A stretch of 64,000 nucleotides of DNA, taken from the NCBI GenBank assembly GCA_019787685.1, contig JAHNUO010000039.1:1-64000 (forward strand), read 5' to 3'. Shown here in pieces: positions 4,220-17,142 of the stretch. The notes beneath the pieces are model-generated. The model was given only the letters and a program-made list of their open reading frames with translations, was not told the origin of the DNA and made no database searches. Every line of letters begins with the position of its first letter. Position 1 is the first letter of the stretch. This DNA comes from Chiua virens. Its lineage: Eukaryota; Basidiomycota; Agaricomycetes; Boletales; Boletaceae. Position numbers and translations under genes: made by a program.

Positions 4220-4665
4220 GATAATGAAACTTAACACTATCTCCATAATGACCATATAAGACCGAGAAGACAACCAAGAGGAGTTCTTCCGGTACCACTA
4301 GAATCATGTGTTCAGCCTTATCGAAGTATCGATGTCCCACTATCCAGTGACCAATACCATTCGCGCGCATTCTCGGTGTAGAACAGTACAGTAGATATGG
4401 GAGATAGATAGATACACTAAAATGATGTACCCATTCTTCTCGGTTTTCCGATCCTTCTCTACCCTCATGTTTGGCTCCGACATAATTCACATGAGATATA
4501 ATCCTGATCATCAAGACTTGAAAGCAAAAGGTCCGATATATCCGTGTGTATCTGAATAAACTCCCTTACCAGATGGTGGTGGCAAGAGACGAAACGATAA
4601 CTAGTGATCGCAGCGATTGCAGGCTAATTCATCTTTTTCTCGCCGCTGCATCGTTAATGGGTACG

Positions 4666-5219
4666 TGTCATATACCGCTCCGTTCTCCGTTCCTCCGAAT
4701 ATAACTCCGTTTCTCTTAGACGATAACTCCGGGTCGATCTCCCTCAGGACGCAACTCCGCGACCCCGGACCTCCGTTACGTATATATGTTTCCTCTTTTA
4801 TATTAGTACATAACCTGTGTCTCGCTTATGAGCACAGCTCCGGCTTTCTCAGTACCCGACTTACCTCCGGCTATGTAGTTTCCCAATCTTCCGTCTTACT
4901 CAGTTCTTACCAACTCCGTTACTAATCTCCATTCCACTCCGAGTATATAAACTGTAGTACCCCGACTGTGTACCCTTAGTCTGAATATTAGTTTATTGTA
5001 CGACTCACTCCGAACACTCCGTAAGACCTTGACGGTCTTTACTCCGCTCGACTCCACTTTATGTGTTGAGTCATATATCTACCTCCGTCCTCCGCACGTC
5101 CGAAATATAGGGACAGACTGTGACAAGGGCGCACCACATACGGTGAAGCCAAGTCCCGTCCGACGTTACAACTCCGGAGATCCGGAGTTGGCTACCTCCG
5201 AGTCACACGGTCTCTAACA
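4666..5219 (+). repeat. 5' LTR of family B
   Basis: 554 bases, TG...CA. It contains a TATATAAA box at 4944-4951 and 18 occurrences of CTCCG by my count. Relative to the 3' LTR it has A where the 3' copy has G within CpG at two places, and keeps CpG at the two places the 3' copy lost. Confidence 0.93.
4944..4988 (+). promoter_or_regulatory. LTR promoter and predicted transcript start, family B
   Basis: TATATAAA lies at 4944-4951. Thirty-four bases downstream, 4978-4988 reads AGTCTGAATAT. This is the exact reverse complement of 5222-5232 just after the LTR. That geometry is expected if transcription starts at 4978 and the RNA 5' end primes reverse transcription by folding back, as in Tf1. The start site is predicted, not measured. 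Confidence 0.65.
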
Positions 5220-5221
5220 GT

Positions 5222-5232
5222 ATATTCAGACT
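5222..5232 (+). other. Self-priming primer-binding site, family B
   Basis: ATATTCAGACT, 2 bases after the 5' LTR, is an 11-base perfect complement of the predicted RNA 5' end at 4978-4988. No tRNA-type TGG start is present here. Confidence 0.6.
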
Positions 5233-5261
5233 GCTTCTTGTCATCAGTCACCTCACGACCT

Positions 5262-6506
5262 ATGTCCTCTCACACCCGCCCTCAGACCAGTACTACTGGT
5301 ATCTCTACCTTGAACCTATCTGACACTACCCGCATCCAATCCCTCAGAAACCTCCTCAGTCGCCGACGAACTCCTGAAGTCATCGAAGATTTCCGAGGTT
5401 TCTCCACTCGACTTATCGCATCCTCTGCCTCTCGAGCACCCGTATTCCTGGGTGCACGAACTCCGTCTTCCCGTAATCAATCTCCGAGTATTCCGGGCTC
5501 CTCCAGGGGACATCCCTCTGATGAACCCAACTCCGGAGATGACTTCTCTGACCCCGAAACCGAACTTGCCTCTGATGATACCTATGGGCGATTGACAAAT
5601 GCAATACAAAGTCTCACTCGCGCCTCTCGTCACCCCTCCTCTAGCTCCTCCCCTCGCACTAAAGTCAGAGAACCTGATCAGTTTGATGGGACAAGCCCCC
5701 GCAAACTCCGAATCTTTCTCGTTCAATGCGAGTTGAACTTCCAGGACCGTCCCAAGGCTTTCCGCTCAGACCGTGCCAAAGTCACATTTGCACTGTCTTA
5801 TCTGAAAGGAATTGCCCTTGAATGGTTTGAACCCGACCTCCTCAAATCTGACCCCTCCGTCTCCCTTCCCCTCTGGAAAGATCACTACACCGACTTCATT
5901 CTGGAACTCCAGACGAACTTTGGTCCGCACAATCCGGTCGGAGACGCGGAGTACGAACTCCGAGATCTGTCCATGAGTGATGGACAAAGGATCAACAAAT
6001 ATGTAGTTGAGTTTAACCGCTTAGCTGCTCAAGTCCATGGTTATGGAGAAGGTGCTCTCTGTACCCATTTCTACAATGGTCTGCCAAACCGCATCAAAGA
6101 CGAAATCTCTCGCGTAGGCAAACCCCCAAGGCTCTCTGAAATGCATTACATGGCGCAAGCTATCGATGCTCGCCATTGGGAGCGCAACTCCGAGATTAAT
6201 CGCGCCTCCGCGCAATCCTCCAGAAACTCCGCATCCGCATCACCTCCTATCTCCGAATCCGACCAAGAATATGACTCCGACGACTCCGTCGAGTCTACCT
6301 CCGCACCCCAAGAACCTGAATCACCACTCGGTGAAGACGGTAAACTCACCTCCGTCGAACGTCAGAGACGTTTCGACCTCTTCTTATGTATGTTCTGTGG
6401 CCTCCCAGGACATAAGGCTAAGGACTGCCCCAAGTCCACTTCTCGCTCTGCGAAGCCCCGTGCTACGCGAGCAACTCCGGTATCCTCCTCCGAGGACACC
6501 GACTAA
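5262..6506 (+). CDS. Gag of family-B element
   Basis: ATG at 5262 opens a frame of 414 codons. The only upstream ATG in the predicted leader is a two-codon frame (ATG TGT TGA at 5061). The N-terminal third is Ser/Arg/Thr-rich. A Retrotrans_gag-like core follows (about residues 140-270) containing LRIFLVQCELNF, FALSYLKGIALEWF and LRDLSMSDGQRINKYV. Next comes an acidic Ser-rich linker, then a CCHC zinc knuckle (CMFCGLPGHKAKDC) about 35 residues from the end. Such proteins form the virus-like particle and package element RNA. The frame is intact. No protease or polymerase frame follows, so particles would need enzymes in trans. Confidence 0.9.
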   Translation: MSSHTRPQTSTTGISTLNLSDTTRIQSLRNLLSRRRTPEVIEDFRGFSTRLIASSASRAPVFLGARTPSSRNQSPSIPGSSRGHPSDEPNSGDDFSDPETELASDDTYGRLTNAIQSLTRASRHPSSSSSPRTKVREPDQFDGTSPRKLRIFLVQCELNFQDRPKAFRSDRAKVTFALSYLKGIALEWFEPDLLKSDPSVSLPLWKDHYTDFILELQTNFGPHNPVGDAEYELRDLSMSDGQRINKYVVEFNRLAAQVHGYGEGALCTHFYNGLPNRIKDEISRVGKPPRLSEMHYMAQAIDARHWERNSEINRASAQSSRNSASASPPISESDQEYDSDDSVESTSAPQEPESPLGEDGKLTSVERQRRFDLFLCMFCGLPGHKAKDCPKSTSRSAKPRATRATPVSSSEDTD

Positions 6507-13205: not shown

Positions 13206-13902
13206 TATAAGCACAATCGTCGTACTGAGTATCATGTCTCCTTGTCTCCTTGACTCATTTCGTTGCTGCGCCATGGGCCAATCTGAAGATCGTCATTGGT
13301 CATTTAGTCGAATGAGGCTACCCAGAGTACCTTCTCCCAGATCTCAGCTAACGCCAGAAACGCCGAGTATGCTGGAGTAACAATGAAGTTCATGCTTCGG
13401 TTCGTGAGACAATCATCTTATTGATAGTCATGTATCTACTCTGCATACTGTGTCTACAAATCGCATGACCAATCTTGTGGGACAAATCAACCGTGAGGAG
13501 AGCTACAACAACACAAAGGGCGTAGGAGGGACAGGTAAGCAAAACGGCTGCTATTATACACTGACGGGACGACGAGAAAAAATGGATAAAAAAGGAAACA
13601 GAGTGTCACATGGTGAGACGGCGATGAGAAGGCTGGAAGGAAAAACCAACCCGTGTCCCTGTAATCAATCTCGGCAGGCCGGGCGGAGAAATAGGAAAGG
13701 AGATGGTGACCTTGACGAGGGCGAGGCGCAGGAGTTATCTAGCTCGACTGATTAGCTTTGTGTAAACAAATTTAAACTCGATAACACAAACTCGGATGGG
13801 TTGTTGTGGGTTGTTGATACACGCTCTAACGAGCAATCCGAGTCGCAGGCGCTCTTAACACCATTCCTATCCATCAAGCCACCCGTTTCAATTCTTACTA
13901 TC
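13206..13902. other. Spacer upstream of the G-domain gene
   Basis: A 101-codon open frame (13450-13755) is basic and low-complexity and is probably not a gene. The rest should hold the promoter of the gene starting at 13903; no clear TATA box is seen. Confidence 0.35.
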
Positions 13903-16690
13903 ATGCAGATCGACGATATCAGACAGAAATTTGGACGGTTCCGAATCCTTGTCATCGGACGGGCCAACGCTGGGAAGACGACACTTCTCAAGCAAATCTG
14001 TAATTCAAAGGAGAATCCAGAGATCTATGACGGAGAAGGGAAAAAGGTATGTTTGTATACCAACCTGGGGTTTCTGATCTCATAGGTGGACTGATGGTCT
14101 GTGATCAGGTCGATCTGGCACAGATCGAAGAGTCTGCGGAGGTGAATACCAGGTTTAGACATCAACCCTTGTTATCACGATCTCACATGTCCCAAGCGGG
14201 GAGAACACAATATCGAGAACGAGATGGTCTTTCAAAGTAACCCCGGTTTTGTCTTCCATGACTCCCGTGGGTTTGAAGCCGGTAGTGTCGACGAGTTTAA
14301 CAAGATGAAGGACTTTGTCGCCGAGCGAGCTAAGATGACATTCCTCAAGAAGCGTGTCCACGCTATATGGTAAACACAGATCCACTTATGACGTGCTAAC
14401 CACAACTGTTGCATAGGTACTGTATCCCAATGGATCAGATACACCGCGCTATCTTGACTGCGGAAGAAAAGTTTTTTGATGAATGTGAAACAGGAAATGG
14501 TAGGCTTTTCTTAAATGTCCATTCATTGTTTTATTTTTATTGTACTTTCGGGACAGTACCTGTTGTGGTTGTGTTCACAAAATGTGATGCATTGCGAATC
14601 TTGGCAGTGGCTGCGTTGACAGCCGAGGACAAGAAACTACCTGAACAAGAAAGACTTGCCAAGGTGAAGGAACTCGAGGAAAGCATGGTAAAGAGTAGTA
14701 GAATTTGGGAAAGATTGCAAAAAAGGAAAAATCCCCCCAAAGTGTATGCTGAAGTCAAAGGTCTGTATGAAATTGGGGTTGATATACAGGTATCTCATTA
14801 TGTGAATTTTTTTGCAGATATGCAGAAGTGCAATGAAGGATGCAGGATTGTGCTAGAAAAGACTGCAGCTGCTTTGAATGATGAAAGTTTGGAAATGCTG
14901 TTTGTGACCACACAAAATGCAAACATCATGCTTTGTGTGAAATATGCTGTTGACAGGTATGTGATCCTTTATTAATGTTCAGGATTGTTTAGTGAATTAC
15001 ACATGATATATGTGATAGAACCTTGGTGCCATTCATTGGTGGCAAATTGTCTCCAGTAGGAAGATTTGATCAGAAAGAGCAAGAGTCCTTGATGAGAAGA
15101 ATGGGTATGTGGTTCCCACATGTCAATGTAAGAAAGTGTGGAATTTCTATATGGATGTGAAGTGCTTACAAATATTGGCAGGTAAGAAATGTGATCAAAT
15201 TGAGAAATGGAGAGATTTTGATATGTGTCCATTGGTGTTATGTCTGCTCCCATGTTCTCTCATTCATAGGATGTAAGTGGTCTGACTGTTCTTGGAGGTC
15301 TCAGAGTGATTCTGATCCATGTCCATGTCTGCTCCCACCATGTTCTCTCATTCGTAGCTTGTAAGTGGTCTGACTGTTCTTGGAGGTCTCAGAGTGATTC
15401 TGATCCATGTCCATGTCTGCTCCCACCATGTTCTCTCATTCATAGCTTGTAAGTGGTCTGACTGTTCTTGGAGGTCTCAGAGTGATTCTGATCCATGTCC
15501 ATGTCTGCTCCCACCATGTTCTCTCATTCATAGCTTGTAAGTGGTCTGACTGTTCCTGGAGGTCTCAGAGTGATCCTGATCCATGTCCATGTCTGCTCCC
15601 ACCATGTTCTCTCATTCATAGGCTGTAAGTGGTCTGACTGTTCTTGGAGGTCTCAGAGTGATTCTGATCCATGTCCATGTCTGCTCCCACCATGTTCTCT
15701 CATTCATAGCGAGTAAGTGGTCTGACTGTTCTTGGAGGTCTCAGAGTGATTCTGATCCATGTCCATGTCTGCTGCCACCATGTTCTCTCATTCATAGGCT
15801 GTAAGTGGTCTGACTGTTCTTGGAGGTCTCAGAGTGATTCTGATCCATGTCCATGTCTGCTCCCACCATGTCTCTCATTCATAGCTTGTAAGTCTTAGTT
15901 ACAAGTTATTGAATCCATCTTGCTCCCTCTAATATCCCTCAGGATGTAAGACATCTTTGAAGCCTTGTATGCAATATCATTGAATACTCTTTTTGTGCTA
16001 TCTCCATTTTCTAGAAGGTGAAACCAAATCATTCTCTTTTTTTACTTCATCTTCATCTTTATTTTGCAGGAGGTTTGTTGTACTATCTCACTTTCACCAA
16101 ATCAGTGATTAATGTCATTTCATATAGTTGCTACACTCTCCACAGGTTTTTTTATTTATCAAGTTTCTTATATTTAGATTTAAATTCTCACATTATTTTA
16201 CATCAGGTCCAAGTTCCATATGGTGCCACAGCACACTCAACACCCTCAAAATCAATGGTATGTGCACTATTTTCATGCTAGAACATGTTTCAAGTTCCCA
16301 CAATACTTTGCATAATTCAGTTCCCATGGACTTTGAAACCATGGAAAAAAGCCCTTTTATTGGGCATTGGTCAGTCTTGTTTGGTATCCCATTCCCACCC
16401 CTTCAATATCTGTATAGATTCTGCCATCATTATGGTGCATTCCTTCCATCTCCACCAGCAAGGCAATCCAGGATCAGTTGCCACTGCTGCCAAATTATAC
16501 AAATCATCTGGCACATGTGCCAAAGTTCAACAAGCAGTGACTCTGCTAGCTGATCAACATGATCCCAAAGATACAGAAGGGATGAAAGTGGCAATCATGG
16601 ATCTGATTTCGAAGAATCTCATATGTAAGTCACACTTTTGTGCAATTGTACAAGTTGATTAAACAAACTTTAGCTATGAATATCTCTGTG
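13903..16690 (+). CDS. G-domain (P-loop GTPase-like) protein gene with microexons
   Basis: ATG at 13903 starts an exon encoding a Walker A motif, GRANAGKTT (about residue 20). Exons fit at 13903-14046, 14109-14141, 14197-14369, 14417-14499, 14557-14760, 14818-14956 and 15019-15127. They join in frame over exactly 295 codons. Motifs in order: P-loop; FHDSRGFEAG (the switch II/DxxG-like loop of the AIG1/GTPase-like family); VVVFTKCDAL (the base-binding TKxD motif, about residue 155); a helical region with a final WFPHVN. Downstream, 16207-16257 and 16321-16630 encode a further helical part (ATAAKLYKSSGT). Between them lies a chain of one-codon microexons (15270-16072) and an 18-base exon (16128-16145), all in phase 0. 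The end is uncertain, near 16690. This is a mushroom-expanded family of unknown role, probably a cytosolic GTP-binding protein. An exon-2 fragment is duplicated at 22243-22315. Confidence 0.75.
15182..15887 (+). repeat. Tandem array of 88-base intron-like units
   Basis: About seven and a half copies of an 88-base unit run head to tail. Each full unit begins GTAAGTGGTCTGAC and ends CTCTCATTCATAG plus one triplet. Starts of successive GTAAGT donors are 15273, 15361, 15449, 15537, 15625, 15713, 15801 and 15888, a strict 88-base step except the last (87). The first unit (15182-15269) is diverged in its first half. Each unit is an 85-base GT-AG interval with a CTCAT branch-like motif near its 3' end, followed by a 3-base would-be exon. 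Confidence 0.9.
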
Positions 16691-16699
16691 TGAAAAGTT

Positions 16700-17142
16700 C
16701 AGTACCTTCAATGATCCCTCGACAGTGTACAATATTTCGGTAGAATGGAAACTGGTTGTAAATGCGAATTGTAAATCATTGAATTTCTTTTAACACATTC
16801 AATCAATGCGCGACAGTGATGAAATTCACGATATATCCGATCACGTGCATAGAACTATGATATTTGCATACTGCTAACTGATCGTGATCCAACTAACCTA
16901 CCGAAGGAATGAAAACACTAATGAAAGGCAAATACAAGTGCAAGTAAACTACACCCCTTTCTCTTTCTAGGATACGGCGAGATGAGGACATAAAAACCTC
17001 GAGTCAAGGCACCGTGCATACGTCGACATGAAGAAAGAAAATGAAAGATAAAGAGTTCCCGGGTTCCGAAATATCAACCGCGCATCAAACGGCACGGGGA
17101 TCACATCCGTCCAGATAAGAGATAGCCATTCACCGTTCACAA
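16700..17142. other. Spacer with a duplicated segment
   Basis: No gene is seen. Positions 16856-17108 match 23815-24003 (see that entry), beginning at ATGATATTTGCAT and continuing past GGATACGGCGAGATGAG. Confidence 0.5.

Follow-up and report, generated by a model that had tools for sequence, protein, structure and literature searches.

Introduction

Micro-exon genes (MEGs) of Schistosoma mansoni encode variable proteins by means of tandem short exons, most of which preserve the phase; according to PMC10526429, these exons are mostly 15 bp long (the overall range being given as 6-81 bp in its text and 3-81 bp in its abstract), the introns reach up to 5 kb and automatic gene models handle such genes poorly. 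Here we describe a comparable layout in the bolete Chiua virens (Boletales). In a 64,000-nucleotide stretch of its genome (GCA_019787685.1, contig JAHNUO010000039.1, positions 1 to 64,000 of the forward strand; hereafter the window), a GTPase-family gene carries a chain of 3-nt exons between introns, and very probably each triplet is spliced and translated, a hypervariable segment of the protein being encoded as tandem single-codon exons. As in the MEGs, the 11 pieces of the window gene (3 nt, phase 0) are arranged in tandem and preserve the frame, and 638 such sites occur in chains. Unlike in the MEGs, the array exons are exactly one codon long and the introns are near-identical tandem repeats of 80-90 bp; the likeness is one of layout.

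Near-identical spliceosomal introns in many copies are also known as fungal introner-like elements, which lie in unrelated genes, and in Zymoseptoria tritici the routes that include within-gene tandem duplication make less than 1% of single intron gains (PMC4457414). The Chiua arrays likewise hold near-identical introns in many copies, but the copies seen stand in tandem arrays of one gene family. Aphid bicycle genes are fast-evolving putative effectors which were recognised by their gene structure (PMC9168663). Fast evolution is what the Chiua arrays share with them. Bicycle genes have microexons and, to our knowledge, neither a tandem intron repeat nor one-codon exons. The SNORD115/116 snoRNA host genes contain tens of tandem introns per transcript (PMC11608373). 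In those genes the product is carried by the introns, whereas in the Chiua arrays it would be carried by the codons. CRISPR arrays, in which identical repeats alternate with variable spacers, offer an analogy only, the Chiua "spacers" being single, apparently translated codons, and no relation is implied. With the immunity-related GTPases (IRG, e.g. Irga6), the feature compared is the overall fold of a G domain and a helical domain. No description of one-codon exon arrays was found in the open-licence PubMed Central literature (a set without preprints and subscription papers), and within that literature the layout is new in kind.

Results

Organization of the window gene

The assembly comprises 48.3 Mb in 136 contigs, on which all the genome-wide counts below are based. 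The window gene consists of the following parts:

13903..15127, + strand: constant N-terminal part, seven exons, 295-aa P-loop GTPase with WFPHVN as last residues
13903-14046, 14109-14141, 14197-14369, 14417-14499, 14557-14760, 14818-14956, 15019-15127, + strand: exons 1-7, spliced frame open
15128..15269, + strand: first interval ahead of the array (sequence), kept in the 10 paralogues
15270..15887, + strand: 88-bp tandem array of 8 one-codon exons, D L L L A R A L (sequence)
GAT 15270, CTT 15358, CTT 15446, CTT 15534, GCT 15622, CGA 15710, GCT 15798, CTT 15885, + strand: codons of the array
15943..15945, + strand: one-codon exon GAT (Asp), conserved family-wide at the array end
16015..16017, + strand: one-codon exon AAG (Lys); AAG, CAG or GAG (K/Q/E) in close paralogues, others as given below
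16070..16072, + strand: one-codon exon GAG (Glu) (sequence)
16128..16145, + strand: 18-nt exon, LLHSPQ (sequence, spliced frame)
16207..16257, + strand: 51-nt exon, VQVPYGATAHSTPSKSM (sequence, spliced frame)
16321..16369, + strand: 49-nt exon opening the C-terminal helical domain, FPWTLKPWKKALLLGI... (spliced frame, tblastn)
16418..16660, + strand: last exon of the C-terminal domain, 243 nt, stop at 16658-16660

The initial annotation had placed 11 triplets, an 18-base and a 51-base exon in this region; all of these positions proved exact, each piece lying between AG and GT. The 88-base tandem array that it described is real (Tandem Repeats Finder: 15250-15893, 7.3 copies, 96% match), the array codons being spaced by near-identical introns, six of 85 bp and one of 84 bp, and the last three triplets do follow unrelated introns of 55, 69 and 52 bases. 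Once all the pieces are joined, an uninterrupted 426-aa GTPase frame is obtained. This open frame by itself is no proof of triplet inclusion, because 3-nt exons cannot shift the frame.

The N-terminal exons 1-7 were aligned across the 10 paralogues. Residues 14-153 of the window protein match Pfam MMR_HSR1 (PF01926) with 28 bits for a cut-off of 21.9, and the motifs GRANAGKT and TKCD, which we take to be Walker A (GxxxxGKT) and a TKxD-type motif, were found by eye in the spliced frame. MEG products are secreted proteins that carry a signal peptide; the N-terminus of the window protein (MQIDDIRQKF) is not signal-peptide-like by eye. Four GTPase matches, all to the P-loop region, were obtained in a search of solved-structure sequences. 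At the other end of the gene, the C-terminal part of the protein P0004 from a relative matched 16315-16629 by tblastn (E 1e-16); an additional intron is possible near 16625, in the last exon.

Two further elements were observed ahead of the array. Inside the first interval, an AG|GTAAG at 15181/15182 forms a zero-length junction which is conserved in the ten close paralogues; the interval 15128-15269 may be removed in two steps, in a recursive-like manner, or may contain a zero-length exon at this site. About 0.38 kb upstream of the ATG, at 13526-13534, lies the word TAG-GAGGGACAG-GTAAG (variants GAGGGACGG and GAGGGGCGG), and this word or a variant also stands upstream of six other arrays (L032, L033, L034, L036, L037 and L038). 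It is perhaps a 9-nt 5' untranslated microexon, or else a promoter element.

The exons are strictly 3 nt long throughout a gene family

Chains of at least four AG-k-GT sites were counted in 27 stretches (the window and the loci L031-L056). For k=3, 34 chains with 638 sites were obtained, and none was found for k=1, 2 or 4-12; k=0 gave a single chain of 5 sites, on the minus strand of L032. The AG-NNN-GT layout is thus not a matter of chance. In the whole genome, the pattern GTAAGT-N60-90-AG-NNN-GTAAGT occurs 1596 times with a 3-base exon, versus 7 times with a 4-base and 11 times with a 2-base exon, and two of these 11 belong to array units, at the L043 and L055 loci. The reversed pattern gave 359 (k=3), 818 (k=4) and 61 (k=2) matches; this control is probably not neutral, as the word TGAATG, which is GTAAGT read backwards, occurs within the 83-bp introns, and the k=2 and k=4 counts were used as the comparison standard in its place. 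The 88-bp unit has at least 506 matches in the assembly, and CATAG-NNN-GTAAGTGG has 268 versus 3 for its reversed pattern.

Nearly all of the sites that were located belong to one family. Among the first 100 of the 1596 matches, 99 were assigned by eye to seven GTPase-family loci and one stands alone. The ten close paralogues (window and L031-L039) bear an array at the same site of the same gene, and arrays are also carried by the distant members L041-L050 and L052-L058; by our own reading, the GTPase search gave matches at at least about 70 loci. The array is preceded by GTPase exons in 24 of 25 array loci and followed by the C-terminal domain in 24 of 25 as well, the exceptions, L046 and L045, being loci truncated in the fetched stretch. 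The architecture and its spread over the family can be read off the DNA itself. The number of units does vary, a change that the initial annotation had considered for the 88-base unit: in the looser parse, the arrays have between 6 and 59 triplets.

The length of the exons is kept while the introns diverge. The latter range from 49 to 122 nt (looser parse; mostly 80-90 bp), their consensus sequences form two families which are 72-78% alike, and the exons measure 3 nt in both. The consensus introns start with GTAAGT, mostly end with CATAG and contain CTCAT in 21 of 27 cases or CTGAT in 2 of 27, which we assume to be branch-like YTNAY motifs.

Two loci show particular arrangements. In L042, on the minus strand at about 2.2-7.4 kb, a distance of ~5 kb separates the closing CTT-GAT exons and the C-terminal domain from the array units ahead of them, which points to an insertion within the array. 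At L040, a C-terminal domain (minus strand, 3307-2993) was found with no array and no GTPase match on either strand.

Triplets show the properties of codons

The strict parse yielded 27 loci with 701 triplets of 33 kinds. Only 3 of the 701 are stop codons, versus 44.5 expected from position-specific base frequencies (Poisson P 7e-16, a nominal value, as the codons may be mutual copies and hence non-independent), and 52.2 would be expected from the base frequencies of each array. TAA is absent (26.5 expected), as is TAG, and the three stops are TGA. The apparent TAA stops of the looser parse were rejected: in two cases the codon is CAA or GAA, preceded by an AAG acceptor, and another is the damaged 2-nt exon of L055.

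The arrays also end in a constant manner. Each of the 26 readable array ends has a hydrophobic codon directly ahead of the closing GAT (Asp), namely CTT in 17, TTT in 4, CTG in 2, ATG in 2 and ATT in 1, CTT being found in L057 and L058 among others. In this count L045, which runs off its stretch, was left out, the nearer candidate was taken in L039 and L042, where a second one lies farther away, and 10 of the 26 ends are those of close paralogues and so non-independent. In the one-codon exon that follows the closing GAT, close paralogues have K, Q or E, whereas K, E, Q, R, H or M is found elsewhere.

That the array might be a non-coding minisatellite inside one long intron, with triplets never present in mRNA, agrees with the quality of the unit as a tandem repeat and with the fact that the seven Chiua family proteins examined (P0001, P0002, P0010, P0011, P0013-P0015) end before or at the array. 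Such a repeat leaves unexplained why variation is confined to the triplet, why the 3-nt length survives among introns of such different sizes, why the hydrophobic-Asp ending is conserved and why variable strings are found at this place in relatives' proteins (see below). This explanation, rejected on the avoidance of stops, is highly improbable. Encoding of a protein stretch one residue per exon, as put forward in the initial annotation, is supported by this same avoidance, by exons that remain invariant amid diverged introns across arrays, by the array endings and by the in-frame strings of the relatives. The helix that had been predicted for the joined residues is not general, several arrays being Gly- and Pro-rich (looser parse); the string of one relative, P0004, is nevertheless helical in a structure model of moderate to low confidence.

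The codons are drawn from a restricted set. Nearly each amino acid is represented in the arrays by one or two main codons, and the set differs by intron family: in the looser parse, Ala is GCT and Pro CCT with 85-bp introns, and GCA and mostly CCA with 83-bp introns. In the strict parse, GAT (72), TAT (73), TTT (50) and CAT (11) sum to 206 without a single C-ending synonym, versus 24 of 58 in the gene's constant exons; third-base C is found in 0 of 701 triplets versus 87 of 415 in these exons, and first-base A in only 4.9% of the triplets. One TAC was detected at a non-strict L052 site in the looser parse. The absence of third-base C and the scarcity of first-base A are attributed to a splice-site, CpG or alphabet constraint, and the lack of C may be due partly to CpG decay before GTAAGT, or to the splice site. 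The missing synonyms, beside saturated amino-acid change, argue for the copying of codons from a pool and against their fresh origin by point mutation.

Many introns are homogenized while codons are diverse

In the ten close paralogues, 1.2% of intron positions are non-consensus, versus 55, 54 and 28% for the three triplet positions. Intron diversity (pi) was measured in 20 arrays with at least 8 introns of equal length. It is 0.0000 in L053, 0.0008 in L049 and 0.003-0.015 in eight other arrays, and in these ten arrays the diversity at codon positions 1 and 2 is 0.50-0.78. In L053, 26 of 27 introns are identical and the codons are saturated. The intron consensus has fixed array-specific differences, which indicates homogenization within the array.

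The codon strings of paralogues are no closer to each other than shuffled strings (10 of 10 pairs, p 0.25-1.0). Seven of these pairs are within the window and L031-L034, for which the identity of the flanks was measured: over the stretch that matches 14807-15180 of the window, which spans two exons plus an intron, L031-L034 share 98-99% identity with it. In the 16 arrays analyzed, the haplotype of an intron shows for the most part no link with the codon next to it. Block duplication was rejected as the main route of build-up, the excess of repeated 3-mers being found in only 2 of 16 arrays, and target-site duplication by inserted introns was rejected as well, the triplets flanking an intron usually being different.

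Two explanations have to be weighed here. Point mutation with strong diversifying selection on the codons, together with ordinary unequal crossing-over of whole units, would account for a diversity limited to coding sites and for the near absence of stops, and yet the identical introns of L053 stand beside saturated codons, the 206 codons lack C-ending synonyms (partly, maybe, through the CpG decay mentioned above), and whole-unit duplication predicts repeated strings and linked intron variants, which few arrays show; we regard it as rather unlikely. The second is copying of introns alone (intron homing) through an RNA or DNA intermediate that ends at the splice sites and leaves the codons untouched. 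The identity of introns as far as the splice site at either end, next to triplets that vary fully, and array-specific homogenization are in agreement with it, but short-tract gene conversion under selection yields the same picture and intron copying alone does not explain the differing codon order of paralogues with almost identical flanks; this second route appears improbable.

Relatives' proteins carry variable strings at the array position

Proteins of related species were compared at the site corresponding to the array. Up to WFPH, P0051 and P0122 share 158 of 162 residues; past this point they have strings of 23 and 34 residues without evident alignment (VLDDLDYLYDLDLDVYLDDVRYE and VPDALGFDDDDRLGLLRRLLDGDADGFDDLYFYE), followed by VSFF in both. 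The VSFF could be a retained GTAAGT intron. Their source JGI contigs are short, the longest having 1866 and 1074 bases. P0004 and P0121 (108 of 145 residues identical upstream) diverge at the array position and rejoin in the C-terminal domain, into which the variable string continues (...ANLDRA and ...NNLDET). The string is followed by NLDR in P0004, NLDE in P0121, NLTE in P0022 and NLLK in P0034, which is the order of the Chiua array end. Searches for further relatives with the C-terminal part and with the tail gave one new protein each.

Other Boletales models, among them P0016, P0019, P0023, P0024, P0063, P0071 and P0088, end with VR or VS and a short tail soon after WFPH or a variant of it. 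These endings may be those of models that read into a GTRAGT intron, the array being perhaps missed order-wide.

The strings also bear on combinatorial splicing, in which coding triplets would be skipped freely and one gene would give many ordered subsets. The sites are near-identical within an array and any subset stays in frame, so that one gene could give many proteins; the long strings of P0051 and P0122 suggest on the other hand that inclusion is common, and we consider free skipping unlikely.

A small-RNA cluster in the introns is improbable

A host gene for intron-encoded small RNAs, comparable to a snoRNA cluster and with incidental codons, could be proposed, tandem introns being present in snoRNA host genes (PMC11608373). 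Three consensus introns fold no better than their shuffles (z 0.81, -0.93 and -0.09), and an Rfam search of 13800-16800 gave no match at the gathering score; snoRNA families matched weakly at two places (E 0.45 and 4.7), both outside the array. This candidate was rejected on the fold z-scores and the Rfam result; it also leaves the avoidance of stops unexplained and is extremely improbable.

Discussion

The results are best accounted for by triplets that are spliced and translated, and we infer that all or most of them would be present in the mRNA. Several observations weigh against this reading, to which the possible non-independence behind the nominal P value of the stop count and the assumption that every triplet is included must be added. 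The TGA triplets are found only in L047 (two) and L057 (one), arrays which may be damaged or whose TGA exons may be skipped. A 2-nt exon is present in L055, apparent 7-nt exons in L038, L041, L044 and L047, and one family member, L051, has a GTPase part with no array in about 4-5 kb. Strong homogenization of introns is not universal: intron pi is 0.025-0.31 in the other ten arrays (L035, L038, L039, L041, L042, L044-L046, L052 and L056). In the 16 arrays analyzed, nominal codon-intron linkage was found in L036 (p 0.004), L054 (0.03), L055 (0.048) and L058 (0.036), and an excess of repeated 3-mers in L034 (p 0.034) and L049 (0.022), all uncorrected. Lastly, the short contigs of the relatives are probably cDNA, as judged from frames that are open across a region which contains multiple introns in Chiua.

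As to the irregular arrays themselves, the 7-nt exons (e.g. CTTGCAA before GTAAGT) look as if 4 nt of the 5' splice site had been duplicated. The L047 array (4269-5295) also has a 435-base gap, and L047 and L057 are possibly damaged genes.

In the mechanism that we propose, the GTPase domain and the C-terminal helical domain would be joined by a hypervariable segment, about 6 to 59 residues long. The introns of 80-90 nt, each with its own 5' and 3' splice site, would be removed one by one, and every removal would add one codon to the growing exon, the triplets being joined in frame. Because all the exons are 3 nt long and in phase 0, gain, loss or swap of a unit would change the protein by whole residues and leave the frame intact. 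Recombination would use the near-identical introns as homology handles: through template switching and short gene conversion, the introns of an array would become uniform and individual codons would be transferred between units, these codons being drawn from a small alphabet with about one main codon per amino acid. Recombination would thereby alter the number of units and shuffle the codons, and selection would largely purge stops and keep the residues varied. Diversification by recombination through intron handles is the best fit to the data, and we give it about an even chance of being correct. A dedicated codon-writing system, in which introns would be renewed from splice site to splice site and single codons inserted, swapped or removed from a fixed alphabet, seems distinctly unlikely; if true, the mushroom would possess dozens of GTPase receptors whose recognition segments are rewritten, a repertoire of the germline or even a somatic one, by a logic comparable to that of adaptive receptor diversification.

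If the triplets are translated, no coding sequence known to us is split more extremely than that of the Chiua arrays, with more than 1000 one-codon exons in one genome, and the protein could be changed by single residues without frameshift. Models of splicing would be challenged, since exons of this size leave far too little room for splice factors to occupy both sides simultaneously. The arrays make intron homogenization versus codon diversity directly measurable. Across the boletes, the annotation of a large gene family may stop short at the very part that varies. It is reasonable to regard the segment as a putative diversified surface for recognition or interaction, e.g. in nonself recognition, and if the segments are indeed recognition surfaces, they would constitute a new kind of receptor diversification in fungi.

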